Source of the DNA: a virus
Virus record (IMG/VR): IMGVR_UViG_3300048818_000025
Span: 1 to 55,830 of that record
Direction: 5' to 3' (one strand)
DNA: 55,830 bases
In this document: one piece after another, positions 32,955 to 48,201 of the stretch
Layout: the number at the start of each line of letters is the position of its first letter
How positions within the stretch are numbered: the stretch's first letter is position 1
Program-made: the position numbers and the translations under genes
The notes under the pieces: generated by a model
Told to the model about the DNA's origin: nothing
What the model saw: only the letters and a program-made list of their open reading frames with translations
Databases searched by the model: none

Positions 32955-33266
32955 TTATATCCTGCGCTCCGCTCTTGCCGTTGCTTCGGCTGATTGTTGC
33001 TCGCTGAATTTCATTCTAATCCACTCAAGCTGAACCTTCAAAAGATTTGCATGCTTGCGGGCGTCCGTCATTGTCTTGATGTAGCTCGTCCATTGCTCAG
33101 AGGCCTTTGCCAGCATTTCAGCTTTGGAAACCGAGTCGGCGTTGGTCGCTAGCATCATCTGAGAAAGGTTGGCTGATTTAGTCTCTTCGAGAAGAGAGGC
33201 GGCGGCATCGGCCTCAACCCAGGCCTTTGCCGCCAGCCTAAAAGTTTCTGAGAGTATCTTTGCCAT
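32955..33266 (-). CDS. Helical protein next to SSB-like gene
   Basis: 103 residues, predominantly helical, Ala/Lys/Glu-rich. One-base overlap with the SSB-like gene (TGATG), hence likely a functional partner. No family recognised. Confidence 0.6.
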   Translation of the reverse strand: MAKILSETFRLAAKAWVEADAAASLLEETKSANLSQMMLATNADSVSKAEMLAKASEQWTSYIKTMTDARKHANLLKVQLEWIRMKFSEQQSAEATARAERRI

Positions 33267-33718
33267 CAGAACGGGATTTCGTCGTCCATATCGCCAGGTT
33301 GACGAGACGGCACCTGATCGTCGGCAAAGTCATCATCAGCATTAGCTTGTAATTTGGACGGCTGGCGTTGCTGTGCAGGCTGCGCTTGCTGCTGTGGTGG
33401 ACGGGCTGATTTATTTCGTGATGGCCCGCGCACGCGGATCGCCGGGACTGTCTTACCCTGAAAATCCACCATAGCTTCAAACAGAACGATTTCGTGCCCC
33501 GTCCAATCGTCGGTTTCATCGCCATAGATTATTGAGATATTGTTGGCGTTGGTCTTGTTCAAAACCATGCCCTTTTCCTTGCCCTGGAAATATAGGATTA
33601 GTTTCTTATCGTCGCCAATCATTTCATATTCAACCCGGCCCATCTTAACCAAAACTTGCCGCTGTTGCAGATCGGATGCTTTCAGGTATTTTGATGGAAA
33701 GGCTTCTGAGGTACGCAT
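33266..33718 (-). CDS. SSB-like single-strand DNA-binding protein
   Basis: 150 residues. Residues 1-100 form a compact beta-rich domain; the linker is Gln/Pro-rich; the end is DMDDEIPF, essentially the acidic tip of bacterial SSB that recruits repair and replication proteins. EAFPSKYLKASDLQQRQV and GMVLNKTNANNI match a phage family replacing SSB. AAAGGAAC precedes ATG 33718. It probably coats phage DNA during replication or recombination. Confidence 0.75.
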   Translation of the reverse strand: MRTSEAFPSKYLKASDLQQRQVLVKMGRVEYEMIGDDKKLILYFQGKEKGMVLNKTNANNISIIYGDETDDWTGHEIVLFEAMVDFQGKTVPAIRVRGPSRNKSARPPQQQAQPAQQRQPSKLQANADDDFADDQVPSRQPGDMDDEIPF

Positions 33719-35299: not shown

Positions 35300-35449
35300 A
35301 TGAAAAAGACGCCGGTTGCCTACAAGCTTAATCCATTGCTAATTAAGCGCCTAAAGGCCGCATCTAAAGGCCATTATGCGCCTACTATGACAGCAATCCT
35401 AGAGCGCGGGATTGAGTTAGCGTTGCGGGAATTGGAGAGAAAGAAATGA
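35300..35449 (+). CDS. Ribbon-helix-helix regulator
   Basis: 49 residues. A short strand (VAYKLNPLLIKRL) followed by two helices (TAILERGIELALRELERKK) fits Arc/CopG-type repressors. No Shine-Dalgarno sequence, and the promoter places the mRNA 5' end almost at the ATG, so the message is probably leaderless. It is the best candidate to bind the adjacent operator. Confidence 0.68.
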   Translation: MKKTPVAYKLNPLLIKRLKAASKGHYAPTMTAILERGIELALRELERKK

Positions 35450-35622
35450 GTGGCTTGGAATGGATTTTAATTCTGGCTCATTATGTTGGCCCCACTTCCT
35501 CACCTTACATAGAGGTTAAGCATTTTCCAACGGAACAAGCTTGTATGGACTATGAAAAAAGACGTGATGGTGGGACAAGCTGTTTTGAGATACCAGTCTC
35601 ATCAATGCGCATTGTTAGATAG
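35446..35622 (+). CDS. Small hypothetical protein
   Basis: 58 residues, ATGA-coupled to the RHH gene. Hydrophobic start (MSGLEWILILAHYVGP), then polar with two cysteines (QACMDY, TSCFEI), resembling small exported or membrane-edge phage proteins. Confidence 0.6.
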   Translation: MSGLEWILILAHYVGPTSSPYIEVKHFPTEQACMDYEKRRDGGTSCFEIPVSSMRIVR

Positions 35623-35635
35623 TCTCAGGACACAC

Positions 35636-35803
35636 ATGGCAAACTCACCAAAGCGAGATAATGAAACGCAAAGTTCCTATGTGATCCGTCTCATTCAAGA
35701 GGAGGAGCGCGAGCGGTGTGCTAAGATTGCAGAGAATTGGGCTTATCCTCCGGTTGAAACTGCCTCTGGAATTGCCGCCGCTATTCGCAAGCAAGTCTCT
35801 TAA
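35636..35803 (+). CDS. Small phage protein (ERERCAKIAE type)
   Basis: 55 residues from ATG 35636. EEERERCAKIAENWAYPP and a final AAAIRKQVS are a widespread pattern in small phage proteins. An upstream ATG at 35552 would overlap the preceding gene heavily and is rejected. Confidence 0.6.
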   Translation: MANSPKRDNETQSSYVIRLIQEEERERCAKIAENWAYPPVETASGIAAAIRKQVS

Positions 35804-35819
35804 CAAATCCAGACTGACA
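35796..35819 (+). repeat. 24-bp direct repeat, copy 1
   Basis: The sequence from TCTCTTAACAA to CAGACTGACA covers a stop codon and the leader of the next gene. It matches 38255-38278 at 22 of 24 positions. Confidence 0.75.
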
Positions 35820-35821
35820 AA

Positions 35822-35992
35822 ATGATTATAGTTGCTTGCAAATGTGGATGGGAAGGCGACCAAGAACTATTGGTTGAAGTGAAGGGCTGTGACGGCAAAT
35901 ACTGCCCTCATTGTGGCAAATGGTTTGCAAGGTGGCCTGCAAGGGCAATAGTCATGGAAGATATGAGAGACGCCACGGGAGAGTTCAAATGA
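35822..35992 (+). CDS. Zinc-ribbon-like small protein
   Basis: 56 residues. ACKCGWEGD and KYCPHCGKWF supply paired cysteines of a zinc ribbon. Ends ATGA into the next gene. Possibly a regulator or adaptor; partner unknown. Confidence 0.65.
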   Translation: MIIVACKCGWEGDQELLVEVKGCDGKYCPHCGKWFARWPARAIVMEDMRDATGEFK

Positions 35993-36213
35993 CCGCAGCC
36001 TCCTTGCGCGAAATGGCCTACCGCATGTGTAATTGGAGCGCATACGATCTGATTAAGGCTGGTGTGCTGGTCGCGGATAGCAAGGGTGAGCCAGCAGTCG
36101 GCGGATCGGACTGGAAACGCTTCAACATCGACCCTTGGACATTCATCATTAAGCTGCCGGACGACCGACTTGCAAATCTCGCATCACTCATCGATGCGCG
36201 GACTATAAAATAG
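35989..36213 (+). CDS. Small hypothetical protein
   Basis: 74 residues from ATG 35989 (ATGA overlap). Contains helical REMAYRMCNWSAYDLIKAG and DWKRFNIDPWTFIIKLPDD. No recognised family. Confidence 0.6.
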   Translation: MTAASLREMAYRMCNWSAYDLIKAGVLVADSKGEPAVGGSDWKRFNIDPWTFIIKLPDDRLANLASLIDARTIK

Positions 36214-36253
36214 TGCAACGATGCACCTTTGCTGCCACTTAGAAAGCAGACTC

Positions 36254-36754
36254 ATGCCAAACCCGATTTCATCTTGGACCGACGAGCGAACGTTTCTTGC
36301 GCGTGAGCTTTACGAATCTGGAAAGCATAGCAATGCGCAGATTGCTCGTCGGCTAGGTGGCGTGAGCCGGAATGGCGTCATAGGAAAAGCAAACCGCGAA
36401 GGTTGGGTAAATCCTAATCCTAAACGCGGTGGCACAAAGCCTGGAGAGAAAAGACCGCGAGCCGCTGGCTGGAGCCGCAAGAGTGCGCTATCAATATTCG
36501 GCAATCTATCTCGCAATGATCCTGGCGAAGCTTCCCTTCCCGCTCAAATCACCCCGCCTGAGTTTCTTGCTCTAACACTGGTGGAGCTTGGCAATCGACA
36601 ATGCCATTATATCCCAGGCAATGACCGCCTTTACTGCGGGCAGCCGACTGAGGGAGAATCCTCATATTGCGGATGGTGCAGAAAAATAATATACCAGCCT
36701 ATGTACAGAAGTCATGGGCGATTAACTTTAGTTCCAGTAAACAGTAAGGGGTAA
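36254..36754 (+). CDS. GcrA-like cell-cycle regulator
   Basis: 166 residues. Residues 7-50 match GcrA: SSWTDERTFLARELYESGKH then AQIARRLGGVSRNGVIGKAN. The C-terminal part has the cysteine and histidine block QCHYIPGNDRLYCGQ and SSYCGWC of the family. In Caulobacter, GcrA binds sigma70 and activates promoters carrying methylated GANTC. A phage copy could redirect host cell-cycle transcription or serve phage promoters. ATG 36254 begins at the domain; an upstream TTG at 36221 is rejected. Confidence 0.88.
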   Translation: MPNPISSWTDERTFLARELYESGKHSNAQIARRLGGVSRNGVIGKANREGWVNPNPKRGGTKPGEKRPRAAGWSRKSALSIFGNLSRNDPGEASLPAQITPPEFLALTLVELGNRQCHYIPGNDRLYCGQPTEGESSYCGWCRKIIYQPMYRSHGRLTLVPVNSKG

Positions 36755-36756
36755 AA

Positions 36757-37383
36757 ATGGCCTACTTGGAATCCGAACCAAATTCAGTTCAGCGCGAATT
36801 TCGGCAGGCTCATATTGAGCGACGATTGCGAATAGCCTCGGCAGCTAGGGTTGATAGGCCGATAAATCTCAAGTTCAAGAATGGGATCGACCCATCCATA
36901 GTTAAACGGATTGAGATAAAATCTGTTGATAAAGAGCAAGAAAATATAAACTCTATTCATATCAAAGAGTTAATGGAAAAGTGCATAGCTCTAGAACTTC
37001 AATATAAACAGCTTATGCACAAGTTTTTTCCGCTTGAAACCGCTCCAGATACCCCAGAACCTACCATTTTGATCCGCAAGCCAAGCGTGGCAGAAATAAT
37101 AAAAGAGGTCGCGTTATTTTCGGGATTTACGCGGCTAGATATTCTCTCGCCACGAAGGGAAAAAGAGGTCTGCCGGGCGCGGCAAATATCAGTTTACTTG
37201 GCTAAGAAATTTACCCTACGTAGTTTCCCGGAACTCGGCAGAATATTCGGGCGCGATCATTCTACTCTCGTCCATTCTAGTCAGAAGATCGAGAAAAATC
37301 GCGCAGTTGATCCAATATTGGATGATAATATTAAAGAGCTAGAACTTAGAATTTCTATCATCGCGTCTAAGACTGCACTGTAA
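36757..37383 (+). CDS. DnaA domain IV-like DNA-binding protein
   Basis: 208 residues. Residues about 110-190 match the DnaA-box-binding domain: VCRARQISVYLAKKFTLRSF then LGRIFGRDHSTLVHS, the DnaA signature. Domains I and III (AAA+ ATPase) are absent; the N-terminal 105 residues are unrelated and Lys/Glu-rich. It could mark the phage origin or compete with host DnaA at oriC. Starts 2 bases after the GcrA-like stop. Confidence 0.87.
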   Translation: MAYLESEPNSVQREFRQAHIERRLRIASAARVDRPINLKFKNGIDPSIVKRIEIKSVDKEQENINSIHIKELMEKCIALELQYKQLMHKFFPLETAPDTPEPTILIRKPSVAEIIKEVALFSGFTRLDILSPRREKEVCRARQISVYLAKKFTLRSFPELGRIFGRDHSTLVHSSQKIEKNRAVDPILDDNIKELELRISIIASKTAL

Positions 37384-37426
37384 TCGGCGTACAATAAAAC
37401 TGCACCGCGTTACTAAGCCGGGCCGG

Positions 37427-38080
37427 TTGACTGCCGTCCATTGCTCAGACTTGCCGCGTACAAAATCGACGCATGGCGAAATTGGGCTTTACGATATGCC
37501 AGGTGATATTATCAAGGCCCATATAGAAAACGGGTGGACCTACCACAGCCGAATTACTGTCTGGAAAGACCCTGTAGTGGAAATGCAGCGCACCAAGGCG
37601 CTAGGGCTGCTCTATAAGCAGCTACAGAAAGACGCTACGCGGTCTAGGCAGGGGATGCCGGACTATGTTTTGGTGTTTCGTAAGACCCCGGACGTAGAGC
37701 AGTCCAGCGACCCTGTGGGGCAGGATGCGGCCCATTTCCCGGTTGACCAGTGGCAGCGTTGGGCTTCCCCGGTTTGGATGGATATTAACCAAACCAATGT
37801 CTTGAATGTCCGTATGGCGAAAGAGGACAAAGACGAAAAGCATCTATGCCCGTTGCAATTAGATTTGATCGATCGGGCAATTTACCTTTGGACCAATCGA
37901 GACGATATTGTTCTTTCACCTTTTATGGGCATTGGGTCTGAGGGTGTCATGGCCCTTAAATGCGGGCGTAAATTTGTTGGTGCCGAGCTTAAGCAGTCCT
38001 ACTACCAGCAAGCTATCAAGAATTTAGAGTTTCAGGAATCTGAAAGTGCCGGAGGGGATTTGCTGACAGGTGCAGCGTGA
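37427..38080 (+). CDS. Truncated N6/N4-type DNA methyltransferase
   Basis: 217 residues from TTG 37427. SRQGMPDYVLVFRKT and DIVLSPFMGIGSEGVMALKC belong to the C-terminal half of N6_N4 methyltransferases; the latter is SAM-binding motif I. The catalytic SPP(Y/F) motif IV normally precedes this region and is absent. The frame stays open upstream and reads RVTKPGR, which matches the family just before TAVHC, so a 5' part was lost near 37395. Either inactive or a SAM/DNA-binding remnant. GTGA overlap with the next gene. Confidence 0.72.
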   Translation: MTAVHCSDLPRTKSTHGEIGLYDMPGDIIKAHIENGWTYHSRITVWKDPVVEMQRTKALGLLYKQLQKDATRSRQGMPDYVLVFRKTPDVEQSSDPVGQDAAHFPVDQWQRWASPVWMDINQTNVLNVRMAKEDKDEKHLCPLQLDLIDRAIYLWTNRDDIVLSPFMGIGSEGVMALKCGRKFVGAELKQSYYQQAIKNLEFQESESAGGDLLTGAA

Positions 38081-38262
38081 CGCCGGAACGAAAAGTTGAA
38101 TCTGCTTTAGATAATTGGTTTCGCGGCGAAGGATGGACGCTAGATATTTCTGGCGGCGATCACATCGCCAACCAATTCTATGATGATGAAAGTGACGAAG
38201 GATACGAGATTAGCTTGAACTTGACCGAGCTAGCCAAATCAATCGTCACAGAAATCTCTTAA
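38077..38262 (+). CDS. Small acidic protein
   Basis: 61 residues from GTG 38077 (GTGA overlap). Acidic centre (DDESDEGYEISLNLT). Last gene of the GcrA/DnaA operon. No family recognised. Confidence 0.6.
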   Translation: MTPERKVESALDNWFRGEGWTLDISGGDHIANQFYDDESDEGYEISLNLTELAKSIVTEIS

Positions 38263-38278
38263 CAACTACAGACTGACA
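38255..38278 (+). repeat. 24-bp direct repeat, copy 2
   Basis: Covers the stop of the preceding gene and matches 35796-35819 at 22 of 24 positions. The next plus-strand gene is 3 kb away, so a leader function is unlikely for this copy. Confidence 0.75.
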
Positions 38279-38284: not shown

Positions 38285-38359
38285 CTATTTTAATAGAATT
38301 GTGAGTGCTATGGTAAACAATCCGCAAACTATGAACCATTCCGCTGCTGCGCTTTGCAT
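38285..38359 (-). CDS. Single-span membrane micro-protein
   Basis: 24 residues with one hydrophobic helix (FIVCGLFTIALTILL). It starts 6 bases after the upstream gene's stop, at the distal end of the second leftward operon. Confidence 0.45.
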   Translation of the reverse strand: MQSAAAEWFIVCGLFTIALTILLK

Positions 38360-38365
38360 ATCGGC

Positions 38366-38536
38366 CTATTCTGACTTAAGGGCAGCGACGGCAATGCGCC
38401 TCGCTCTCACCCGGCAAGCTGGCTTGTAGCTATCCTCTTTTCGGTCGCGTAGAGGCAGGTCCGCGATCTTCTGCAACGCCTTCCGCAACCGCGTCACGGT
38501 CAAGGCTAAATGCACTATGCGTTCCTGGCGCGTCAC
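38366..38536 (-). CDS. Small basic helical protein
   Basis: 56 residues from GTG 38536. Arg/Lys/Leu-rich (ALTVTRLRKALQKIADLPLR), fully helical. No ATG is available in frame. Plausible nucleic-acid or protein binder. Confidence 0.5.
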   Translation of the reverse strand: MTRQERIVHLALTVTRLRKALQKIADLPLRDRKEDSYKPACRVRARRIAVAALKSE

Positions 38537-38548
38537 GGCGGGGTAATC

Positions 38549-38758
38549 CTACTGCTTGACCTTCTCAAATCGAAGGCTGTGGAATTTAGCAAATTCGGCG
38601 ACGGCTTTCAGGTTAGGCAAGTCAACGTCCGCATTCTGCACAGCACCAGTCCAGACCTTATTCGAGCGGCCATTGCCATGCTGGTCGCAAGCGATTAGCT
38701 CGCCGCATAGGCGCTCGCCTTCATAAAACCGAACCGTTGTGCATTCTTGGCGCGGCAT
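38549..38758 (-). CDS. Small hypothetical protein
   Basis: 69 residues starting MPRQECTTVRFYEGERLCGE, beta-rich first half. No family recognised; position in a dense leftward operon supports it. Confidence 0.6.
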   Translation of the reverse strand: MPRQECTTVRFYEGERLCGELIACDQHGNGRSNKVWTGAVQNADVDLPNLKAVAEFAKFHSLRFEKVKQ

Positions 38759-38762
38759 TGGG

Positions 38763-38954
38763 CTATTCCTTCAACTTTAGAAGTGCATTGAGACAAGCGT
38801 TAAGTTCAATCTCGTCGCGTTCCGTCCATGGGGCCATTCCGTAATTGAATGTGCAAACTTCTCGATCCCATGAAGCGTGGATAGTGCGCCGATTACGATC
38901 AGGTTTGCCACCAAGTAGCGTCTGCAATACAAAATATGGCGGCAGCGTAACCAT
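38763..38954 (-). CDS. Small hypothetical protein
   Basis: 63 residues from ATG 38954, chosen because ATG 39005 would run 34 bases into the upstream gene. Contains RTIHASWDREVCTFNYGMAP. No family recognised. Confidence 0.55.
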   Translation of the reverse strand: MVTLPPYFVLQTLLGGKPDRNRRTIHASWDREVCTFNYGMAPWTERDEIELNACLNALLKLKE

Positions 38955-38971
38955 CGGCGGGGCCTCTATAT

Positions 38972-39307
38972 TCAACGGGTGGGTGGTGCTGGTAGCAGCA
39001 TCCAATAAGTCGGATTTACGAGGGACAGCAATTCAGCTTCAAGCGACCCCTCGTACCAGCCAGCGGGGGCGAAATCGCCGTCCTCGTCGTAGTCATGCTT
39101 TGGTAGGTCGTCGCGATACTGCGCGTGCATGGACCGCCACTTGCCGAGCGAGTTGAAAAACCCGACCAGCAACAGCCGATCCTTCGGCGCTGTCTCAATC
39201 GGTTTCCACTCGTCGCTTTTGGCTTTTCCGGGTAGCTGGCAAATATCGGCAACGTCATGATCGTGTTGCAGATGATCGCTCAGTTGTGATGCTAGCGTTT
39301 CGGTCAT
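38972..39307 (-). CDS. DUF551-like phage protein
   Basis: 111 residues. DEWKPIETAPKDRLLLVGFF and the ending NPTYWMLLPAPPTR are the hallmark of DUF551-type phage proteins, a frequent early-region family with unknown function. Confidence 0.8.
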   Translation of the reverse strand: MTETLASQLSDHLQHDHDVADICQLPGKAKSDEWKPIETAPKDRLLLVGFFNSLGKWRSMHAQYRDDLPKHDYDEDGDFAPAGWYEGSLEAELLSLVNPTYWMLLPAPPTR

Positions 39308-39317
39308 GGCTGCGGGC

Positions 39318-39446
39318 CTATTTCGCTAGGTTTTGGATTTGCGTTTCTAGGTGGCGCACATCGGCCTCGCAGCCGCACGCCTTGGCATCGGCAAGCTCTT
39401 TAGTGAGCCGATTTAGCTTGGCCTGTTTTCGGTCCTGTGCGGTCAT
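39318..39446 (-). CDS. Small coiled-coil protein
   Basis: 42 residues, helical with a central cysteine pair (LADAKACGCEADVRHLETQ). Recognised from frame and placement; no family. Confidence 0.5.
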   Translation of the reverse strand: MTAQDRKQAKLNRLTKELADAKACGCEADVRHLETQIQNLAK

Positions 39447-39454
39447 TTTCGGGC

Positions 39455-39607
39455 CTATTCTAACTGATCGCGGAGGTCGCTGACGGCTTCCGCTTCCGTC
39501 TTGCCGTAGCCAATGGGGCGGCCCGGCTCATAGCCATCCTCAACCGCCGACCAATCAAACGATCTTATCGGAATTGGTGGATAAATATGGGCGGTGACTA
39601 TTTTCAT
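39455..39607 (-). CDS. Small conserved phage protein
   Basis: 50 residues, SFDWSAVEDGYEPGRPIGYG then TEAEAVSDL, a motif set common to small phage proteins. ATGA-coupled to the upstream gene. Confidence 0.68.
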   Translation of the reverse strand: MKIVTAHIYPPIPIRSFDWSAVEDGYEPGRPIGYGKTEAEAVSDLRDQLE

Positions 39608-39780
39608 GCCGCCATTTTCACCTTCGCCAAAATGGCCTGATTGGTGAGTTTGACATTCAGCTTAAGGTTATTTGTTGCGAACGATAGGGCTGCGGGAAGC
39701 GTCCAAAATCCCAATTCATCGCCCCGCTCTGAAATCTTGAGGAACCAGCAGTTGTTCCGGTAATCAATGGTGGTGGTCAT
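39604..39780 (-). CDS. Small hypothetical protein
   Basis: 58 residues from ATG 39780, preceded by GGAGAG. Just downstream of a 21-bp palindrome, so its expression is probably repressed or activated there. No family recognised. Confidence 0.6.
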   Translation of the reverse strand: MTTTIDYRNNCWFLKISERGDELGFWTLPAALSFATNNLKLNVKLTNQAILAKVKMAA

Positions 39781-39808
39781 TTGTGCTCTCCGTTTCCGAT
39801 AAATATAC

Positions 39809-39829
39809 AATACGCCAATTTGGCGTATT
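39809..39829. promoter_or_regulatory. Palindromic operator
   Basis: Perfect 10-base arms AATACGCCAA and TTGGCGTATT around a single central T. It lies between a Cro-like HTH gene (39838-40047) and the next leftward gene (39780), with an AT-rich TATATT-like box on the leftward side. Likely the binding site of that HTH protein. Confidence 0.7.
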
Positions 39830-39837
39830 TGCAATAG

Positions 39838-40047
39838 CTATCTGCGCAACTTTATTGCTTTCTTTTGGAGCCTGTTTAGGGCCATCCGGTCCTTACCAAC
39901 GGCCAGCAAAACCATAGAAACGGCCAGTGGTGGGCCTTCTGAAGCCCAACGCTGGCCGCTGCGGGCGCTGGTGCCAAATAGCTCGCCTGCAGCTTCCTGG
40001 GTAAGCCCAAGGGCCTCAATACGGCTGCGGTAGGCTTCTGGCGACAC
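39838..40047 (-). CDS. Cro/CI-like HTH protein
   Basis: 69 residues. HTH LGLTQEAAGELFGTSARSGQ then RWASEG. Similar in start and turn to the product at 27710. Short C-terminal basic helix (LNRLQKKAIKLRR). Probably autoregulates through the palindrome just beyond its stop. Confidence 0.75.
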   Translation of the reverse strand: MSPEAYRSRIEALGLTQEAAGELFGTSARSGQRWASEGPPLAVSMVLLAVGKDRMALNRLQKKAIKLRR

Positions 40048-40053
40048 GGCGGC

Positions 40054-40314
40054 CTAATCTAACAGGGTTAGAGTTTCGCGGGCCTTGGTAAGACAGCCCT
40101 GCATATCGGTGTGGTGTTCGGTGATCCATTCCAGCGCATCCTTCGCCGCGACCAGCCTCATATCGCGCTCCATCACAAGATCAGCAATCTCGGCCTCGAC
40201 TTGCTTGCGCTCGGTAGCTATTGCGCCAGCGACCTGATCCCTCAACGCGCCGGAATGAGCCGCGACTATCGCGTTAGCCTTGTCAAAATCCTCGTTGTGG
40301 ATAGCTACGGGCAT
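40054..40314 (-). CDS. Coiled-coil protein
   Basis: 86 residues, helical with charged heptads (GAIATERKQVEAEIADLVME). No family recognised. Confidence 0.6.
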   Translation of the reverse strand: MPVAIHNEDFDKANAIVAAHSGALRDQVAGAIATERKQVEAEIADLVMERDMRLVAAKDALEWITEHHTDMQGCLTKARETLTLLD

Positions 40315-40329
40315 TTCGGGCCTTATTTG

Positions 40330-40785
40330 TTAGATTGCTTCGCCAATAATCTCACGCTCAAGAGCGCCGTATTTTTCATCGTCACCGACGACTTGGCCCT
40401 TGAGCGCGACGATCCACCACCGCTCACCTTTCCACTTTGGCGGAATAAGTGTGGCGTGGAGAGTGCCTTTTTTGCAGAGGTCGAGCGGCCCAGGCGAAGT
40501 GTGAATAACGCCGGGCGCTGGCGTCTCGACTTTAACACCGCCGTTTGCCGGGGAGCCGTCCGGGTTAGACCGCCAGAACGCAATCTTGGCACCGTCCCGC
40601 GTTAGTTCGTTCATGCGTTTCTGCTGGCGCTCGTTCCACTTGGCGGCGAAGTAAGCAATACAGGACTGCCAATAGTAGCCGTCGGCGGAGCCGTCGCCGG
40701 AGCCGTAGCCGTAGCCGTAGCCGTAGCCGTCGCCGTTTGCCGGGAAGCCGTCCGGCAGCTTACCTTGCAGGACTACCGGGACCAC
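40330..40785 (-). CDS. Gly-Tyr repeat protein, short copy (DUF7666-like)
   Basis: 151 residues from GTG 40785. An N-terminal run of about nine Gly-Tyr, Gly-Ser, Gly-Asp dipeptides (GDGYGYGYGYGSGDG) is followed by YWQSCIAYFAAKW and a conserved domain (PGVIHTSPGPLDLC, LHATLIPPKWKGERWW). The paralogue at 49578 has the same domain and a fourfold longer repeat. The GTG overlaps the upstream stop in the same register as the paralogue. Function unknown. Confidence 0.8.
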   Translation of the reverse strand: MVPVVLQGKLPDGFPANGDGYGYGYGYGSGDGSADGYYWQSCIAYFAAKWNERQQKRMNELTRDGAKIAFWRSNPDGSPANGGVKVETPAPGVIHTSPGPLDLCKKGTLHATLIPPKWKGERWWIVALKGQVVGDDEKYGALEREIIGEAI

Positions 40786-41075
40786 GGCGCGGCCTCCCAA
40801 GCAACAGCCGCTGCGGGCGTAACTTCGGCAACGCAGGTAATATCCCGCAGTTCAATATCTGCCGCAGGCCCGACGCGAGCGCCGTCAACCGGCCCCATTG
40901 AAGCTAGGCCGAGAAAGCCCTTATTCGCAGTCGGCCACGAAATGCAGTTACGGGCGGCGCGGAGCTTAATCATCACGCCGTCAGTCTTGATCGCGTAGCC
41001 GAAGAACACGCCCCGGTGCGAGGTTGTGACCAGCACGGCGCGTTCGTTCTTTTTGCGGTTAGGGTGGTTTACCAT
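40773..41075 (-). CDS. DUF6948-like protein, copy 1
   Basis: 100 residues from ATG 41075 (AGGAG upstream). ERAVLVTTSHRGVFFGYA and GFLGLASMGP match the plus-strand protein at 49282 closely. The two form a conserved pair with the repeat gene. Family name from memory; function unknown. Confidence 0.78.
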   Translation of the reverse strand: MVNHPNRKKNERAVLVTTSHRGVFFGYAIKTDGVMIKLRAARNCISWPTANKGFLGLASMGPVDGARVGPAADIELRDITCVAEVTPAAAVAWEAAPWSR

Positions 41076-41128
41076 CTTGGCTCCTATGCCCCTGAATGCC
41101 GAGGCGCACATTGCCCGAAGGTTCGGGC

Positions 41129-41302
41129 CTACTTTGACTTCGGTGGGGTATCGAGTTCGGTTCGCAGCGCATCCATTTCCGTCACCAGCGCCTCGATACG
41201 TTTGCGCGTGGTGCCGATGTAGGTGTCCTTGTACGTTGGCGACTTGAGGTAGTGGCGAAGGCCCTCTACCGCGTCAAACAGCACATCCGAAACCATCGCC
41301 AT
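41129..41302 (-). CDS. First gene of second leftward operon
   Basis: 57 residues from ATG 41302, GGGAGA upstream. Helical (VSDVLFDAVEGLRHYLKSP, then a polar tail). Directly downstream of the leftward promoter at 41319-41348. Confidence 0.6.
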   Translation of the reverse strand: MAMVSDVLFDAVEGLRHYLKSPTYKDTYIGTTRKRIEALVTEMDALRTELDTPPKSK

Positions 41303-41318
41303 ATCTCCCTGTTGACCG

Positions 41319-41348
41319 TATATAGGCAAAGCCTTGACAACTTGTCAA
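41319..41348 (-). promoter_or_regulatory. Leftward promoter
   Basis: Minus-strand TTGACA (41348-41343), 18-base spacer, TATATA (41324-41319). Its -35 box is one half of the perfect palindrome TTGACAA-C-TTGTCAA (41334-41348). Confidence 0.72.
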
Positions 41349-41376
41349 TAGCCCTATACGCATAGTTGACAACTTG
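41334..41376 (+). promoter_or_regulatory. Rightward promoter with repeated operator
   Basis: TTGACA (41334-41339), 15-base spacer, TATACG (41355-41360). The 11-base box TTGACAACTTG occurs twice (41334-41344 and 41366-41376), the first inside a perfect palindrome. Same TTGAC-N5-GTCAA layout as at 35264. The second box lies just before the recombinase start and could also be part of a recombination site. Confidence 0.65.
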
Positions 41377-41388
41377 ATAGGGTTCGGA

Positions 41389-42033
41389 ATGTCCACCGAT
41401 TTACTGCCAAAAGGGTTTTTAGTCGGCTATGCGAGAGTTTCCACAGAAGATCAAAAGCTCGACCTCCAGCTTGATGCACTTAGATCAGCCGGGGTGCTAC
41501 CTGATAATTTGCACGTCGAAAAAATCTCAGGCGCTTCCGCTAAACGTCCGGCTCTTGATCTTGCTATTAAAGACCTTCGCCAAGGCGATACATTGGTCGT
41601 GTGGCGCTTGGATCGTTTGGCCCGAAGTATGCGCCAACTCTACATGCGCCTCGACCAAATTTACGCAAAGGGGGCGAATTTCCGAAGCATTACGGAAGCC
41701 TTCGACTTCGGCACAGTCAGCGGCAAATTCGTCCTCGGAATCCTGGGACTTGTCGCTGAGTTTGAACGCCAGATCATCGCCCAAAGAACGTCAGCAGGCA
41801 TCGCGGCGCTCAAGTCTCGCAAGGGCAAGGAATACAAGTGGGGACGTACATTGCACATGACACCGGAGCGCGTGGCGCTCGTTGGGGACTATCTCAACGG
41901 TCGCAATGGCAAGCCACAGTTGAGCGGACCGAAGATCGCCGCGAAGCTCAAGGTTTCTACGGCCTCAATCTATGGGTATTGGAAACAGGCAGGCAAGGGC
42001 CGGTTCACTCGCCGGAAAGCTACGCCGAAATGA
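41389..42033 (+). CDS. Serine recombinase (resolvase/invertase)
   Basis: 214 residues. Catalytic N-terminal domain: GYARVSTEDQ with nucleophile Ser18, VVWRLDRLARS with the conserved arginines, and FDFGTVSGKFVLGILGLVAE then FERQIIAQR. A C-terminal HTH (GPKIAAKLKVSTASIYGYWK) completes the small resolvase type. May resolve multimers or integrate; no partner site was proven. ATG 41389 follows AGGG; TTG 41374 is alternative. Confidence 0.93.
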   Translation: MSTDLLPKGFLVGYARVSTEDQKLDLQLDALRSAGVLPDNLHVEKISGASAKRPALDLAIKDLRQGDTLVVWRLDRLARSMRQLYMRLDQIYAKGANFRSITEAFDFGTVSGKFVLGILGLVAEFERQIIAQRTSAGIAALKSRKGKEYKWGRTLHMTPERVALVGDYLNGRNGKPQLSGPKIAAKLKVSTASIYGYWKQAGKGRFTRRKATPK

Positions 42034-42551
42034 CCGAAAGGCTTTACGTGTACGTCGCAGAAAGCTCCAAGGGCTTAATCAAGATCGGCTTCTCGGCTAA
42101 CCCGAAACGCCGCGTGAAGTATTTGAGCGGAACCGTGCTTCATGCACACCGTCCGGTTACTTTCTTGCGAGCTAAGCGCATGGACGCAATAGCTGCATAC
42201 AAGGTGGAAAAGTTCACTCAGTACCTTCTAGCCGAACACGCAGCCCCTATGACTTACCCCGGCCTTGGGCCTTCGATGGAGTGGTTTCAATGCTCACAGG
42301 AAGCCGCCTTTAAGGCCCTAAGAACCGCCGTTCGTTGCGTGCAGAACGCAACAGAGTATTTCGGGCATGATCGGTTTAACTGGCGGCGAGCCGTGCCGTT
42401 TATAAAGGCACGAAAAGGATTGGTGTTGCCGCATAAATTCGACATGTGGCTTACTCGGCAAATCGAACTATCTAAGGGCGAGCGCCTTGATGCGATGATT
42501 GATGTTCAACGTAAGATGCACAATCTATGCGCTACGGCGCAGAACAATTAG
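42030..42551 (+). CDS. GIY-YIG-like nuclease (T5orf172/Mug113 type)
   Basis: 173 residues, ATGA-coupled to the recombinase. LYVYVAESSKGLIKIGFSAN has the GIY-YIG strand pair with KIG, then PKRRVKYLSG and the helix KVEKFTQYLLAEH, and EWF closes the domain. Probably a DNA endonuclease. The coupling to a recombinase suggests joint action. Confidence 0.78.
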   Translation: MTERLYVYVAESSKGLIKIGFSANPKRRVKYLSGTVLHAHRPVTFLRAKRMDAIAAYKVEKFTQYLLAEHAAPMTYPGLGPSMEWFQCSQEAAFKALRTAVRCVQNATEYFGHDRFNWRRAVPFIKARKGLVLPHKFDMWLTRQIELSKGERLDAMIDVQRKMHNLCATAQNN

Positions 42552-42560
42552 GAGACTGGC

Positions 42561-42890
42561 GTGGCCGACGTGAAGCTCACAGAACTCGAACCGCAATGGC
42601 TCACGCGGGACGGCAAGCGCGTGGGCGTGATATTTCGCAATCCGTCGCCAGAGCATCGGAAGTGGCGGGTGACTTGCTTCGCTGCGCCGACGCCGAATGA
42701 CGATCAAGAGGCAATCGTTCACGCGGCTGTCGGGGAGACGGATATGTGGCAGGGCTGCAATCCGGCGTCGGGCTGGAAATTTGAAGGCGGTATAGACGGC
42801 GCTACATTCGAGACGCTGACAATCACGCCTTCGCTCGATGGTGGTCAGCATTGGTGGCACGGATTTGTTACCGGCGGGGTTTGCAGGTGA
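42561..42890 (+). CDS. Hypothetical protein (possible DUF6527 relative)
   Basis: 109 residues from GTG 42561, TAGGAG at 42549-42554. The ending TLTITPSLDGGQHWWHGFVT resembles the TPSI...WHG.I..G signature of DUF6527, but zinc-binding residues differ, so the assignment is weak. Beta-rich. Confidence 0.5.
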   Translation: MADVKLTELEPQWLTRDGKRVGVIFRNPSPEHRKWRVTCFAAPTPNDDQEAIVHAAVGETDMWQGCNPASGWKFEGGIDGATFETLTITPSLDGGQHWWHGFVTGGVCR

Positions 42891-43165
42891 GCGACAAGTG
42901 CCACATGTGTGGGAGGCCGCCCTCGGAACATTCTTGGGACACCCGCTCCATATGCAACTTCTATCTCGGCGCGGCCGGGTCAAATCTCACGAAAGACCAG
43001 GAGGACGCAGTCTATGCCGCATATCTCGGCATCTGCTTTCTTCAAACGATGTGCCGCAGAGTGAACCTGAAACTTGGTGAGCAGCGTGCACAAGAATTGC
43101 TTACCGAATTAGGCGTCGCCTTCCCGTTCATTCCCGAACGGGTCGGTTTGTCCGCCTTACGTTGA
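42887..43165 (+). CDS. Cysteine-containing small protein
   Basis: 92 residues from GTG 42887 (GTGA overlap). DKCHMCGRPPSEHSWDTRSI gives a CxxC plus His. Helical C-terminal half. No family recognised. Confidence 0.55.
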   Translation: MSDKCHMCGRPPSEHSWDTRSICNFYLGAAGSNLTKDQEDAVYAAYLGICFLQTMCRRVNLKLGEQRAQELLTELGVAFPFIPERVGLSALR

Positions 43166-43182
43166 ATATGCAGGAGTTTAGC

Positions 43183-43314
43183 GTGACGATCAAAGAGGCA
43201 ATAGAAATTCTCACGGAAGAAGTGGTTGCGCGCAAGACGAGCCCGAATAGTTGTTCGGAAGAAGTTACTCAGGCAATTGAAACGCTTTTGTCCGTCATCA
43301 CACAGAAAGCTTAG
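43183..43314 (+). CDS. Small helical protein
   Basis: 43 residues from GTG 43183, six bases after AGGAG; ATG 43168 is the alternative. Polar helix. Its stop TAG is the first part of the TAGGAG that serves the next gene. Confidence 0.55.
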   Translation: MTIKEAIEILTEEVVARKTSPNSCSEEVTQAIETLLSVITQKA

Positions 43315-43326
43315 GAGAATTTTGCT

Positions 43327-43548
43327 GTGACCGTAGCAACCGATTTTAAGCGCGCCTACTTGCAAGAAAACAAACGCGCCAACTATGCCGAGGGCGCGCT
43401 GCGCAACATCGTTCTGGCATGGAACAAACTCAAGCCCGGCAATTACTCCAAGGACGTATGGGAAACGTGGCTGGAAGAAACTCTCAAGCCTGCCGTAGTG
43501 GCTGGCGAGGTTGCGCTGACTGTTCTAAATAATCAGCGAAAGAATTAG
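43327..43548 (+). CDS. Small hypothetical protein
   Basis: 73 residues from GTG 43327, helical, with WNKLKPGNYSKDVWETWLEE. The stop TAG begins the next TAGGAG. No family recognised. Confidence 0.6.
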   Translation: MTVATDFKRAYLQENKRANYAEGALRNIVLAWNKLKPGNYSKDVWETWLEETLKPAVVAGEVALTVLNNQRKN

Positions 43549-43558
43549 GAGTTTTTAG

Positions 43559-43756
43559 ATGGCGTGGACCGCAAAGCAGAAGGCCGCGTTCAAAAAGGAA
43601 CGGCGGAATTTCAGCGCCAAGACCTATCTCAAGGTCAAGAAGGAATTTGACCGGCAACGCAAGCTGCCGCGCAACGCGCCTGTCTGGTACATGAACAAGA
43701 CTGAATGGAACGCAATATCGTCGGCGCTCAAGATTGCTGCCGATCACTCTAAATAA
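43559..43756 (+). CDS. Small basic protein
   Basis: 65 residues, Lys/Arg-rich (MAWTAKQKAAFKKERRNFSA), with VWYMNKTEWNAIS. AGGAG 8 bases upstream. Possible nucleic-acid binder. Confidence 0.6.
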   Translation: MAWTAKQKAAFKKERRNFSAKTYLKVKKEFDRQRKLPRNAPVWYMNKTEWNAISSALKIAADHSK

Positions 43757-43771
43757 TTAGGAGCCGAGGCG

Positions 43772-44008
43772 GTGTACGAGAAAATGAGTGCCAGCGAGAT
43801 TGTTTTGCAAGCCCTCATTTGGGGCGAGGAAAGCATTACCGAAATGATAAACGGCACCCATGAATCAGAACCGCACCGCGCCGAATTGGTCGAGTTGCGA
43901 AGGCAGATGCGAGTTTACAGGAAGCGGCGTTACGGCAAGCCGGTTGATCCCTTCGCAAACGCCAAGCTTGTCAGCGCCTTTGATCTGCCCATTACGAAAG
44001 AGGGATAA
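43772..44008 (+). CDS. Small charged protein
   Basis: 78 residues from GTG 43772, preceded by TAGGAG at 43758-43763. Helical with a basic middle (LRRQMRVYRKRRYGKP). Ends one base before the next GTG. Confidence 0.55.
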   Translation: MYEKMSASEIVLQALIWGEESITEMINGTHESEPHRAELVELRRQMRVYRKRRYGKPVDPFANAKLVSAFDLPITKEG

Positions 44009-44009
44009 C

Positions 44010-44792
44010 GTGGTTTCTCCGGTTCCAAAGCACCTACGCGCCGATGACGAGTACGACGCTATCGCTGGCGAGCTGCGAGATCATCGGTATGGCCTAGAGG
44101 TTGACCGATCAAAGGGAGTTGACCTTCCCGGCATCGGCGCGCACCGCGCCAAGTACGCGCCCGGCCTTGCAACGGCACTCTTGGCGCTGGCCGGGACCGA
44201 TGACGTTGGCGACCCGATGTGCGGGACCGGGACGCTTGGACGAGAAACCGGGAAGCTAGTTGCCCTGAACGACATTGATTACGGCATGTGGAATTTTTTG
44301 GAGCCTCTTGGGAAAAATGGGTGCCAAGTCACGTTTGGTCCCGCTACCGAGATTAAGTGGCGGCGCGAAGTCTGCATCTTTTCGCCGCCGTATTATCCGA
44401 AGGCCGATCGCTGCAAGCCGTGCGCTCACAATGACGCGAGGCGCGGCCCGGTCGTCGGCTTCCGTGATTCCTATTCTGGCGACCATCCTCAATTCGTCGG
44501 CAACCCCGGCGGCGTGAACGCTATTCTAAAATATCGCCAGCAGATGACCGCGATCTATGACCACCTTAAAACGGTCTGCGACCGCATGATTGTAGTCACA
44601 AAAAACTGGACGCGGCTTGGCGTGGAAATGCGCCTCGACCTCGACACGATATTGATGGCGCAATCGGTCGGCTGGTACTGCGAAGGGCGGAACGGATTTG
44701 AGCCGTCGCCGTCTTTGTGGTCGCGCTACAATAAGCAACGCGGCGGCGGTGTCACCGTCGAAGATGTGTTGATGTTCTCGAAACCCCGTTGA
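44010..44792 (+). CDS. DNA N6/N4 methyltransferase
   Basis: 260 residues from GTG 44010. SAM motif I is GDPMCGTGTLG (about 67-77) and catalytic motif IV is FSPPYYP (about 124-130); order I then IV. No cognate nuclease gene nearby, so an orphan modification enzyme, perhaps anti-restriction or regulatory. It is intact, unlike the other two methyltransferase-like genes of this genome. Confidence 0.82.
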   Translation: MVSPVPKHLRADDEYDAIAGELRDHRYGLEVDRSKGVDLPGIGAHRAKYAPGLATALLALAGTDDVGDPMCGTGTLGRETGKLVALNDIDYGMWNFLEPLGKNGCQVTFGPATEIKWRREVCIFSPPYYPKADRCKPCAHNDARRGPVVGFRDSYSGDHPQFVGNPGGVNAILKYRQQMTAIYDHLKTVCDRMIVVTKNWTRLGVEMRLDLDTILMAQSVGWYCEGRNGFEPSPSLWSRYNKQRGGGVTVEDVLMFSKPR

Positions 44793-44809
44793 AGAATTAG
44801 GAGAATTTA

Positions 44810-44998
44810 ATGCGCTGGCGTCACAAGAAGCGCGGAACGACTTACGAGGAAATTGGTCGCGCCAAGCTCCAAGCCTCTGACACTGGCGGTATGGGCGACC
44901 ATCATCCGATGGTAGTTTATCGTGGTGAGGATGGTCAGCTTTGGGTGCGGCCAGAAGATGAATTTGAAGATGGCCGCTTCGAGCGGCTGGTGGATTAG
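44810..44998 (+). CDS. Small protein resembling DUF1653
   Basis: 62 residues. RWRHKKRGTTYEEIGRAKLQ, then MVVYRGEDGQLWVRPEDEF follows the YxHyKG...VvYr...lWvRp..mF pattern of DUF1653-like beta domains. TAGGAG upstream at 44798-44803. Confidence 0.6.
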   Translation: MRWRHKKRGTTYEEIGRAKLQASDTGGMGDHHPMVVYRGEDGQLWVRPEDEFEDGRFERLVD

Positions 44999-45007
44999 GA
45001 GTTTGAA

Positions 45008-45235
45008 ATGGCTACCAACACCCCGTTCTATCCCGGCGATACTCACTGGTCCTACGTCAAGCGTTGGGCGTGGCTGATGTGGGTGCAGTATTGGTCGCCG
45101 CTCGGGTCGAGCGTCTCGACGCAGTATGTTTGTGCAGTTACCAAACCAAAGGAACTGAAAAATGAAATACTTGAACGACAAGTGCCAGCGTTGTGCCAAC
45201 AGCCGAGGACTTCACGCCGCCGTCATCAAGACTAA
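45008..45235 (+). CDS. Trp-rich small protein
   Basis: 75 residues; aromatic segment WSYVKRWAWLMWVQYWSPLG then a Lys/Arg tail. The last 25 codons overlap the next gene in another frame and look less protein-like, so the native end could be earlier or shifted. TAGGAG at 44996-45001. Confidence 0.5.
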   Translation: MATNTPFYPGDTHWSYVKRWAWLMWVQYWSPLGSSVSTQYVCAVTKPKELKNEILERQVPALCQQPRTSRRRHQD

Positions 45236-45293
45236 TACGCAACAGCGATGGCCGCTCGTGTGCGAAGCGTTCAAAGAGGCTGATGAGAATTAG
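45162..45293 (+). CDS. Small cysteine protein
   Basis: 43 residues (MKYLNDKCQRCANSRGLHAA, then a single Cys). AAAGGAACTG upstream fits. Ends with TAG that forms TAGGAG. No family recognised. Confidence 0.55.
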   Translation: MKYLNDKCQRCANSRGLHAAVIKTNTQQRWPLVCEAFKEADEN

Positions 45294-45304
45294 GAGAATG
45301 AAAC

Positions 45305-45442
45305 ATGCGCGTCGAATTTACTTGGTCTAAGTGGTGCGTCCTATTCACACAGCAGCCGACGCCATCCGGTCTTGATCGGTGGTTTACAATCGGTCCGGCC
45401 CATTTTCGGTGGACCGCCAAGCAACTTCGCCCGCTGTCATAG
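45305..45442 (+). CDS. Small Trp-rich protein
   Basis: 45 residues (MRVEFTWSKWCVLFTQQPTP). TAGGAG at 45291-45296 provides the ribosome site. No family recognised. Confidence 0.5.
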   Translation: MRVEFTWSKWCVLFTQQPTPSGLDRWFTIGPAHFRWTAKQLRPLS

Positions 45443-45505
45443 GCGGTCAGTCCCCGTCGCCCGGTGAAGAAAGCCGGGCACCGTTTGAATTTAGAGGAGT
45501 TTGCC

Positions 45506-45649
45506 GTGGTCATAGAAAACATTGGCCTTGGCTTCCACTGGCATAAAATCAGACACGCCTATAAAGAATTTTACGATATGTGGTCAGGATATTGTAGCGG
45601 ACCAAGTGAGTGCGTGTGGATTGTGCCGGGAACGGCACTAGAGGACTAG
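45506..45649 (+). CDS. Small paralogous protein, copy 1
   Basis: 47 residues from GTG 45506. VIENIGLGFHWHKIRHAYKE is almost the same as in the product at 51618; both have a conserved His cluster and CVWIVP end. GAGGAG upstream. A GC hairpin (GCCCGG/CCGGGC, 45459-45479) lies in the leader. Confidence 0.65.
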   Translation: MVIENIGLGFHWHKIRHAYKEFYDMWSGYCSGPSECVWIVPGTALED

Positions 45650-45823
45650 GAACGACCATGCCGATCACGTCAGAGCAGCGCGAAATTCGCAATCTGAAAA
45701 AACACCTTCGCGGGCTGACGGCGCAGGTCATGGAGACGATTGCTAGGATAGACAGGATTATGAAAATTCCGGAAGGACCATTGCGCGGCAAGATGATTGC
45801 CGAGGCGACGAACGCGCTGGAAA

Positions 45824-45831
45824 TGACAAAT
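45824..45831 (+). repeat. Target-site duplication, left
   Basis: TGACAAAT directly before the left inverted repeat, identical to 47564-47571. Eight bases is the usual duplication length for IS1595-type elements. Confidence 0.9.
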
Positions 45832-45846
45832 CATGCTTATCCGGTT

Positions 45847-46917
45847 TCAACATGCAGGCTCTAGCGGTTGATGTGTTCCATGACTGACATTCGGGTGCGT
45901 CCACTCGCCGCTATACAGCCCGTCATAGGTCGGGCTTTCGCCGTTTGCGCCGATGCCCAAGAGCGAGCGGAAGGCATTGAATGGGTAGAAGCGGCGATTG
46001 AACCGGAAGGTAAATTCGTTGAGGTAGGCTTGCAGGTGCTTCGGCTCGACGCGCCCGTGGTGCGTGCCTTGCAGCCAAGCTTTGAGGTTGCTGAAAACAA
46101 GGTGAACGATAGGCAGGTATTCTTCGGCAACATCGGGCTTGTTGGACTCGACCACGGGCATGTGAGCGTAGCCGCGATCAGCAAGCGAGTTGTAGCCGCC
46201 CCAAGCGTCGGTAACGACCATGTTGGACGTAGGATCAACCGCAGCCTCTACAAAGCCGCACAGCGACTTGGCGGTACGGTCGGGGGCGATTTCCAGCCTG
46301 AGACGGCCAGCATATCGGCCACCGCGCCGCATGGGCTTGTCGCCCTTCTTGGCCGGGCGCTGCCGAACCTCGACGGCGGCGACTACGAGCGTCTTGTCGT
46401 CGGCATGGGGACCTTTGCCCTCGCCCCGCGTCACGCCGCCGATGTAGGTTTCGTCAATCTCGATATGGTCGCGGCCCGAAATGCTGCCACCGATCCGGTC
46501 GCGGTCTTGGCGCACCATACCGGCTCGCAGCTTGTGCAGGATGCCGAAGGCGGTTTCGTATCGGGTAAGGCCAAGCTGGCGCTGAAATTGAACGGCGGAC
46601 AGGCCGGGCGTCATGCTGGAAATGAGGTAAGCCCCCCAAAACCAAGTCGTCAGCGGCGTATGGGTGCGTTCCATGACCGTGCCGACCGTCAGGGAGGTTT
46701 GCTTACGGCATTTGCGGCAGGCCACCACATGCGGACGCGCCGCAGAACAGTACAGCGGCTCGCCAATGGCCTTGCAGTGCGGGCAGCGGAAGCCGTCAGG
46801 CCATTTTGCGCCTTCCAGATAACGAGCGCAGGCCGCGTCGTCAGGGAACAGCTTTTGGAACTGCGGCAGGGACTTGGGGAATGGCAGTTTTTCCCATTGG
46901 TGAATGTCTTGGATCAT
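45847..46917 (-). CDS. IS1595-family transposase (ISXO2-like)
   Basis: 356 residues. N-terminal zinc ribbon (RCPHC, CRKC), then the ISXO2-like DDE core: IEIDETYIGG holds the first Asp, VVTDAWGGYNSL the second, and HLVFSNLKAWLQGTHHGRV with FTFRFNRR the last part (Asn in place of Glu is a known variant in the family). The stop lies within the left inverted repeat. Confidence 0.93.
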   Translation of the reverse strand: MIQDIHQWEKLPFPKSLPQFQKLFPDDAACARYLEGAKWPDGFRCPHCKAIGEPLYCSAARPHVVACRKCRKQTSLTVGTVMERTHTPLTTWFWGAYLISSMTPGLSAVQFQRQLGLTRYETAFGILHKLRAGMVRQDRDRIGGSISGRDHIEIDETYIGGVTRGEGKGPHADDKTLVVAAVEVRQRPAKKGDKPMRRGGRYAGRLRLEIAPDRTAKSLCGFVEAAVDPTSNMVVTDAWGGYNSLADRGYAHMPVVESNKPDVAEEYLPIVHLVFSNLKAWLQGTHHGRVEPKHLQAYLNEFTFRFNRRFYPFNAFRSLLGIGANGESPTYDGLYSGEWTHPNVSHGTHQPLEPAC

Positions 46918-46920
46918 GGC

Positions 46921-47181
46921 CTATTTTCCTGTTTTGGCCTGATAAGCGTCGGCGGCGTCGGACGGGTTGTATCCAAGGTCTTGATATTCAGCCAAGCCGC
47001 GCCGTTCCTCAGTTGTGATGACGTGGCCGGGGTTACGGTAGTCCAAAAGCGCCTCGCAAGCATCGCCGACCCACAACATGCGCTTCATGCTGAGTCCGCT
47101 CATGCGGACGTTCCCGAGCTTGTTGACCATATCCTGATGCGCCGGGCCGTGCCCCTCATGGTGTTTCGAGGTACTTGCCAC
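46921..47181 (-). CDS. IS passenger gene B
   Basis: 86 residues, His-rich start (MASTSKHHEGHGPAHQ), acidic middle, no recognised domain. Three bases separate its stop from the transposase ATG, so they are co-translated. Not part of the transposition core as known for the family. Confidence 0.65.
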   Translation of the reverse strand: MASTSKHHEGHGPAHQDMVNKLGNVRMSGLSMKRMLWVGDACEALLDYRNPGHVITTEERRGLAEYQDLGYNPSDAADAYQAKTGK

Positions 47182-47182
47182 G

Positions 47183-47485
47183 TTAGCCTACCTTTCCGGC
47201 AGGATCGGCTATGCGATCCTTTAGCTCGCCCGGTTCAATCGTGGAGTCCTCATGGCTCCAACTATGGCCTGCCCAGTCCGCGACATACCATTTTGTGCCG
47301 TCGCCCGGCACGGTGCGGTCGAGCTTTACCATCGAGCCGTCATGCGAGACAAAAACCTGTTCGGGCGCTAGTTCATCGCGTCGAGCGTACCAGTCGGTCG
47401 TTTTTCCTACGGTATCCACGCCCGTTTGATGGGCTATGCCGCCTCGCGGATCGCTTCCGTGTCCTTTTGCGTCTTTCATGTTCAA
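47183..47485 (-). CDS. IS passenger gene A
   Basis: 100 residues; beta-rich with TKWYVADWAGHSWSHEDSTI, polar ends. First gene of the element's operon, 1 base from passenger B. No family recognised. Could be regulatory for transposition or a cargo trait. Confidence 0.65.
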   Translation of the reverse strand: MNMKDAKGHGSDPRGGIAHQTGVDTVGKTTDWYARRDELAPEQVFVSHDGSMVKLDRTVPGDGTKWYVADWAGHSWSHEDSTIEPGELKDRIADPAGKVG

Positions 47486-47521
47486 CTCCCGTTAACTACG
47501 AGCCTTTCGGCCTCTGCAATC

Positions 47522-47550
47522 TATATAGCACTAGTAGGTGCATGTGTCAA
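47522..47550 (-). promoter_or_regulatory. Strong promoter of the IS operon
   Basis: Minus-strand TTGACA (47550-47545), exactly 17 bases, TATATA (47527-47522). The -35 lies inside the right inverted repeat. It reads into passenger A, then B and the transposase. Confidence 0.85.
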
Positions 47551-47563
47551 GCGGATAAGCATG

Positions 47564-47571
47564 TGACAAAT
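47564..47571 (+). repeat. Target-site duplication, right
   Basis: TGACAAAT directly after the right inverted repeat, identical to 45824-45831. Confidence 0.9.
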
Positions 47572-47685
47572 GACGGCGCGCGGTACTTTGGCCTTGGCGT
47601 AGATTTCCGCAAGGACCGCAAGCCGGGCCGAGACAACGCACCGCCGAAATTTCGTGAAATGCGCGGTATCTTGAAGTCACAATAG

Positions 47686-48201
47686 GAGTAATCCGTCGAT
47701 TATAACCACAGACAGCGCATCGGCGGCTAAGTGAGTTTGTCTTGCGGTGTTAATGGTCTTTACATCTATTAGTAGCGATTGTGCGGCGTAAAAAACTACG
47801 CTAGAAAAAATCAGCGCCGCGCAGGAGGTCTATTTCCTGGCGGCGCAGACCCGAATTGATGCTTGGCGGCTGAAACTCGGGCCAATGACTTAAGAACTAT
47901 ATAGCCTGCGGGCTAGTTCCGGTCAAATCATAAAATCCATGCCGCCAGAAGCCGCCAGAAGGCCCGGGATGCATTTATTTGCATTCTAGGCTCTCGTAGC
48001 AGGGGCGGAACGTGCAGGGTGTAGGGGCGAGGCCCCAACTTGGATGTGCGGCTACGGAAAAGGCCAAGTATGGCTGACGGGACGCTCGGCTCCATTGAGC
48101 AGAATCCTAAGCCACTTCCTCTTGCCTTCCATTGGTTTCCAATGGGGGTAAGGGGGGTGTGGCTTCCGAACACTCTCACCATTGAGCAGGATTAAGTAAA
48201 G
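47686..48201. other. Gene-poor region with structured elements
   Basis: 516 bases without a confident gene. One plus frame (about 47790-47893) reads EKISAAQEVYFLAAQTRIDA and looks coding but has no start, so it may be a decayed gene. Other elements: GAACT...AGTTC hairpin at 47894-47919; CCATTGG-TTT-CCAATGG at 48129-48145; CCATTGAGCAG repeated at 48092 and 48179, the latter just before the HNH gene. Confidence 0.5.
47805..47846 (-). terminator. Leftward Rho-independent terminator
   Basis: Arms GCGCCGC (47814-47820) and GCGGCGC (47840-47846) plus an inner CAGGA/TCCTG pair with one bulged base. On the minus strand the stem is followed by six Ts (47810-47805). It would stop leftward transcripts, but no convincing leftward gene lies to its right. 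Confidence 0.6.

Follow-up and report, generated by a model that had tools for sequence, protein, structure and literature searches.

The genome examined here has adjacent genes for a GcrA-family protein and for a protein with DnaA domain IV at its C-terminus, and with moderate confidence we read the two as members of an early phage operon, co-expressed to start phage expression and replication in an alphaproteobacterial host of the CcrM/GcrA type. The window, i.e. the whole stretch of DNA analysed, is an entire viral record of 55,830 bases and represents a P22-like podovirus. GcrA and DnaA are proteins that time the cell cycle in alphaproteobacterial hosts. The early-operon reading is supported by the presence of both domains, the near-touching and co-oriented genes, the recurrence of the pair and the gene order in a sister phage, G004. 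In such an operon, the phage GcrA would bind sigma2 and (methylated) GANTC promoters, and the DnaA domain IV protein would bind DnaA-box-like sites at a phage origin. As it could not unwind an origin without an AAA+ domain, the latter would then hand the origin to primosomal or host replication proteins.

The open reading frame (ORF) at 36254–36754 (+ strand) encodes a protein of 166 amino acids (aa) that matched PF07750 over nearly the whole profile (E 6e-20; 72.6 bits, curated cut-off 26.9), and residues 7–151 could be aligned with Caulobacter crescentus GcrA (PDB 7ye1; E 1.5e-10), bearing out the preliminary description of a GcrA homologue at this position. The DNA-binding and sigma-interacting ends of C. 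crescentus GcrA both align with the phage protein, and both ends of its structural model were confident. As in the host GcrA structures (C. crescentus; PDB 7ye1, 5yiu and 5yix), an N-terminal HTH (residues 7–50) is combined with a C-terminal Cys domain of the sigma-interacting type (C117, C128, C139 and C142). The third-helix segment is SRNGVIGKANREG in the phage protein and TRNAVIGKVHRLG in C. crescentus GcrA. The C-terminal Cys pattern is retained, but the phage protein has Cys (YCGWC) where the host protein has His (YCVEH) at the fourth metal-type position, and it scored 55.7 bits against the GcrA equivalog NF050816, far under the 280-bit cut-off. A start at 36221 was rejected, as alignment to relatives favours 36254. 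The gene has a low codon-model score and was not called by the codon model. A GACTC (GANTC) site found by sequence scan at 36249–36253 abuts the start codon and is a candidate CcrM/GcrA site; the four GANTC sites in 521 bp around gcrA are not significantly clustered (p about 0.48).

The second gene, at 36757–37383 (+ strand), encodes a 208 aa protein that matched PF08299 (Bac_DnaA_C; E 3e-19; 69.4 bits, cut-off 31.5), with domain IV at residues 111–207. In the AlphaFold model, domain IV was predicted with a pLDDT of about 97, and the first 110 aa are helical and of low confidence. The domain IV model superposes at 0.7 Å on the DnaA-box-bound Escherichia coli structure 1j1v and on 3pvp, which, together with the profile match, confirms that this is a DnaA domain IV protein, as had been proposed. 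The GcrA and DnaA domain IV assignments both far exceed what chance would give. The positions aligned with R399, R407, Q408, D433, H434 and T436 of E. coli domain IV are retained and T435 is replaced by S; we take these seven to be the DNA-contacting residues of the E. coli domain. Only Bac_DnaA_C was matched, and no AAA+ domain III was found in the protein, which is thus not a complete initiator and could neither do the full work of DnaA nor unwind an origin by itself. Other phage proteins with DnaA domain IV (phrog_16091 and phrog_27829; Bradyrhizobium phage WAX24401.1; ctOK67 UOF79249.1) are likewise short, with domain IV at the C-terminus and a replication neighbourhood. However, the protein in the window differs from these in being paired with gcrA and in its longer helical N-terminus, and the Bradyrhizobium phage examples have no GcrA nearby. 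Single-protein searches of viral contigs confirmed no close relatives of either the GcrA or the DnaA-like protein of the window.

Translational coupling of the two genes is likely, as the gcrA stop and the dnaA-like start are separated by 2 nt and AAGGGG lies just 5′ of the second ATG. Upstream, a 49-aa ORF (35300–35449; + strand) had been described as a ribbon-helix-helix protein and appears Arc-like by eye, but this short ORF had no match in Pfam, PHROG or NCBIfam, and no profile supports the assignment. The small ORFs that follow on the same strand in 35446–36213 (35446–35622, 35552/35636–35803, 35822–35992 and 35989–36213) belong to no database family and have no relatives in the fetched loci. 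A single regulated promoter had also been proposed and is unsupported, with five promoter-like matches in the region against a shuffled expectation of 5.0 in a scan for an E. coli-type consensus.

Downstream of the dnaA-like gene, an N-terminally truncated remnant of an N4/N6 DNA methyltransferase (MTase) was identified at 37397–38080 (+ strand; TTG start at 37427). The homology begins 14 nt after the dnaA-like stop codon and abruptly at residue 72 of the 298 of the intact enzyme in the relative L022, and the remaining C-terminal three quarters is 85% identical to that enzyme. Neither motif IV (SPPF), nor the missing N-terminus, nor the helicase gene usually found upstream is present anywhere in the window. 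A 61-aa ORF (38077–38262; + strand) has the same syntenic position as the one downstream of the complete MTase gene in L022. In the relative L039 the gene order is gcrA-dnaA-helicase-MTase, and deletion of the helicase and the 5′ end of the MTase gene from this layout would give the arrangement in the window, suggesting that the fragment is what is left of the helicase–MTase pair located after gcrA-dnaA in L039 and similar relatives. The C-terminal part is shared with phage helicase–MTase pairs (phrog_16/phrog_67; N6_N4_Mtase), whereas the start, motif IV and helicase have been lost. From its sequence, the fragment is predicted to play no catalytic role in the operon, and with motif IV lost it could have no MTase activity. 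Hence, the methyltransferase derivation in the preliminary description is real, though only for a fragment, and the link drawn there to CcrM does not hold: the intact L022 enzyme scored 42 against 830 bits for the CcrM equivalog and its best PDB match was another methylase, making the fragment a relic of a different phage MTase.

The gcrA-dnaA-MTase′ segment is bracketed by a 27-nt direct repeat (35793–35819 and 38252–38278; + strand; right copy 89% identical, 24 matches), each copy of which overlaps an ORF stop codon. No further copies were found in the window. The possibility that the repeat is a widespread element was rejected, as its matches in viral contigs were unrelated.

Of 50 related viral records searched whole, 18 had a GcrA match above the cut-off, 10 had one to DnaA_C, and four (G004, G023, G033 and G043) had both, with the two genes immediately adjacent in three of these. 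In a larger pool of loci, fetched via the MTase or portal, via GcrA and via DnaA and including the window, 20 distinct viral lineages carried both genes nearby, and the genes were co-oriented in all 20. They were less than 100 bp apart in half of these lineages, with gcrA first in 8 of the 10. A simulation of 20,000 trials gave 2.5 such close pairs on average and never more than 9, a comparison to be read with the caveats that early phage genes cluster anyway and that the fetched stretches are unequal in length. Several of the pair partners were checked against Pfam and confirmed; the gene boundaries in L243 are uncertain, as its two ORFs share 305 bp in different frames. In the majority of phages that carry one of the two genes, the partner does not occur within 4 kb (7 of 80 and 10 of 79 have both). 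The claim that the two proteins belong together is thus supported, by the relatives more than by the window genome alone, and the recurrence of a co-oriented pair across many phage lineages gives reason to think that both act together. Phage GcrA has already been published and DnaA-domain phage proteins are known as families; no description of the recurrent pair was found in the literature searched, which covered few subscription journals.

The gene order in G004 is SSB-like (reverse), gcrA-dnaA-DUF1376-NusG and, further on, terminase-portal-capsid. Its proteins share 33% (GcrA), 38% (DnaA domain IV) and 52% (portal) aa identity with those of the window, and retention of the order at such divergence argues for retained function. 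The SSB-like gene faces gcrA-dnaA in both phages; in the window this divergent early gene (33266–33718; − strand; 55% identical in G004) belongs to no named family and was recognised by eye from an acidic tail. The gene for a NusG/RfaH-like antiterminator lies at 51773–52276 (+ strand) in the window, and two genes after dnaA in G004. The distance from the dnaA-like gene to NusG is about 0.5 kb in G004, and in the window about 14 kb of extra genes (38300–51700), including serine resolvase, IS, HNH and methyltransferase-like genes, lie between the two.

The genes following the DnaA domain IV gene were examined in 66 loci, and primosomal (9), helicase (9), replication initiation (5) and DnaB (2) genes were found, compared with primosomal (3) and replication initiation (2) for control genes in the same loci, though helicases are over-represented in this count, as many of the loci had been retrieved via an MTase gene next to a helicase. 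A replisome organizer gene directly follows the DnaA domain IV gene in ctOK67, a gene resembling the N-terminal domain of DnaB follows it in L066, and a CHC2 zinc-finger (DnaG-type) gene, identified by eye, is just upstream in L243. The window itself has a fragment (48846–49199; + strand; phrog_270, E 5e-20) that corresponds to the C-terminus of a phage replication initiation/primosomal protein, and neither a polymerase nor a replicative helicase turned up among those of its genes that were scanned.

DnaA boxes, for which a scan of the phage had been suggested, occur in the window genome at the level expected by chance (37 against 40 expected), and are in weak excess near dnaA-like genes across the relatives (0.40 against 0.29 per kb). 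An AT-rich stretch within the dnaA-like gene (36861–37030), which includes a perfect DnaA box (TTATGCACA; 37013–37021) and a box with one mismatch (36924–36932), is a possible, though weak, candidate for a phage origin. Lambda carries its origin inside O. No convincing iterons were found, and the minimum of the GC skew (34,998) falls at the transcription switch.

The host was sought via the portal gene (2774–5083), which is P22-like, with a best named-phage match of 44% in Pseudomonas phage PAE2 and up to 76% in uncultured relatives; the search of named genomes recovered only a Pandoraea prophage and one metagenome-assembled genome. The density of GANTC, also raised in the preliminary description, proved to be reduced 3.6-fold (55 sites against ~196 expected), and in the window no other gapped palindrome of this type is avoided to such a degree, the others being near expectation. 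The observed/expected ratio is about 0.3 in related phages, and about 0.9–1.4 in L146 (the Pandoraea prophage, 0.87), L147 (1.04) and L099 (1.36). A link between this depletion and GcrA was rejected (median ratio 0.35 with and 0.29 without GcrA nearby; p 0.36), and the equal depletion in phage stretches without GcrA fits a host-type signature better. The phage genome also contains an IS1595/ISXO2-type transposase gene (45847–46917), the closest relative of which is Acidiphilium ISAcr1 (64%). The shared GANTC depletion and the ISAcr1-like transposase point to a CcrM-bearing alphaproteobacterium as the probable host, and GANTC depletion could serve to predict hosts of this kind.

A phage GcrA was proposed to act in host takeover in phiCbK (gp222) in 2012 (PMC3556154), and others have been reported in Atu_ph08 (gp5; PMC6630229), brucellaphage Y17 (ORF4/5; PMC11836647), phiLM21-like prophages (PMC12429752) and a coral-associated phage (PMC11309003). 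The phiCbK-like, Atu_ph08, Y17 and phiLM21-like cases resemble the present one in that GcrA is carried by an alphaproteobacterial phage and is proposed to act on host transcription or replication. However, no adjacent DnaA domain IV partner was found in their descriptions, and the window is from a P22-like podovirus. Neither GcrA sites nor DnaA sites showed a positional signal in a survey of phages of alphaproteobacteria (PMC9437464). Takeover of the cell cycle was also the interpretation in the preliminary description. In such a takeover, GcrA would activate S-phase host genes, and the DnaA domain IV protein would sit on the DnaA boxes of the host, so that host initiation and transcription driven by DnaA would be blocked or redirected during phage replication. 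The retention in both proteins of only DNA-binding or sigma-binding parts, as expected of regulators or competitors, and their recurrence together are consistent with this, as is the phiCbK proposal. We nevertheless consider it possible but doubtful, given that the neighbours of DnaA domain IV genes are often phage replication genes, that DnaA domain IV is not nearby in most GcrA phages, that GANTC is equally depleted where GcrA is lacking and DnaA boxes are at chance, and that neither full DnaA work nor MTase activity could be expected from the products encoded here.

As DnaA domain IV alone is an HTH, it could instead serve as an ordinary DNA-binding domain, and both proteins would then be phage transcription regulators, of immunity or of an early-late switch, and would play no part in replication. 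The position of the operon at a divergent transcription switch and the NusG-like gene that follows in G004 are in keeping with such a role, but the primosomal, DnaB and replication initiation genes associated with DnaA domain IV make it unlikely. That the genes are chance neighbours, perhaps passengers, in a decaying mosaic early region is very improbable. The truncated MTase, the flanking 27-nt repeat and the low codon-model score of gcrA could be so explained, but both frames are intact with family residues retained, the pair and its order persist in G004 at 33–38% protein identity, and the pair occurs in other lineages. Against the favoured early-operon reading are the lack of DnaA box enrichment, a skew minimum located at a transcription switch, and the absence of a nearby partner in most phages that have one of the two genes.

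It is also conceivable, though rather doubtful, that gcrA and a DnaA domain IV gene form a mobile 'S-phase cassette' repeatedly assembled by alphaproteobacterial phages, which would set host transcription to the replicating state and compete with host DnaA; if so, phage replication would be coupled to, or override, the host cell cycle. From 2012 onwards, GcrA homologues of phages have been reported one at a time, and their function was only guessed. With the recurrent pair, it becomes testable whether phages of alphaproteobacteria employ cell-cycle regulators of the host type to replicate their own DNA or to act against the host.

Several 6-mer palindromes are missing from the window despite expectation (GGCGCC, 0 of 27; GATATC, 0 of 17; CCGCGG, 0 of 16), which suggests restriction avoidance. 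A two-gene block, apparently duplicated in opposite orientation (40330–41075 and 49282–50201), encodes a Gly/Tyr/Ser/Asp-repeat protein and its neighbour (HPNRxxxxERAVxVTTSHRGVFFGYA).
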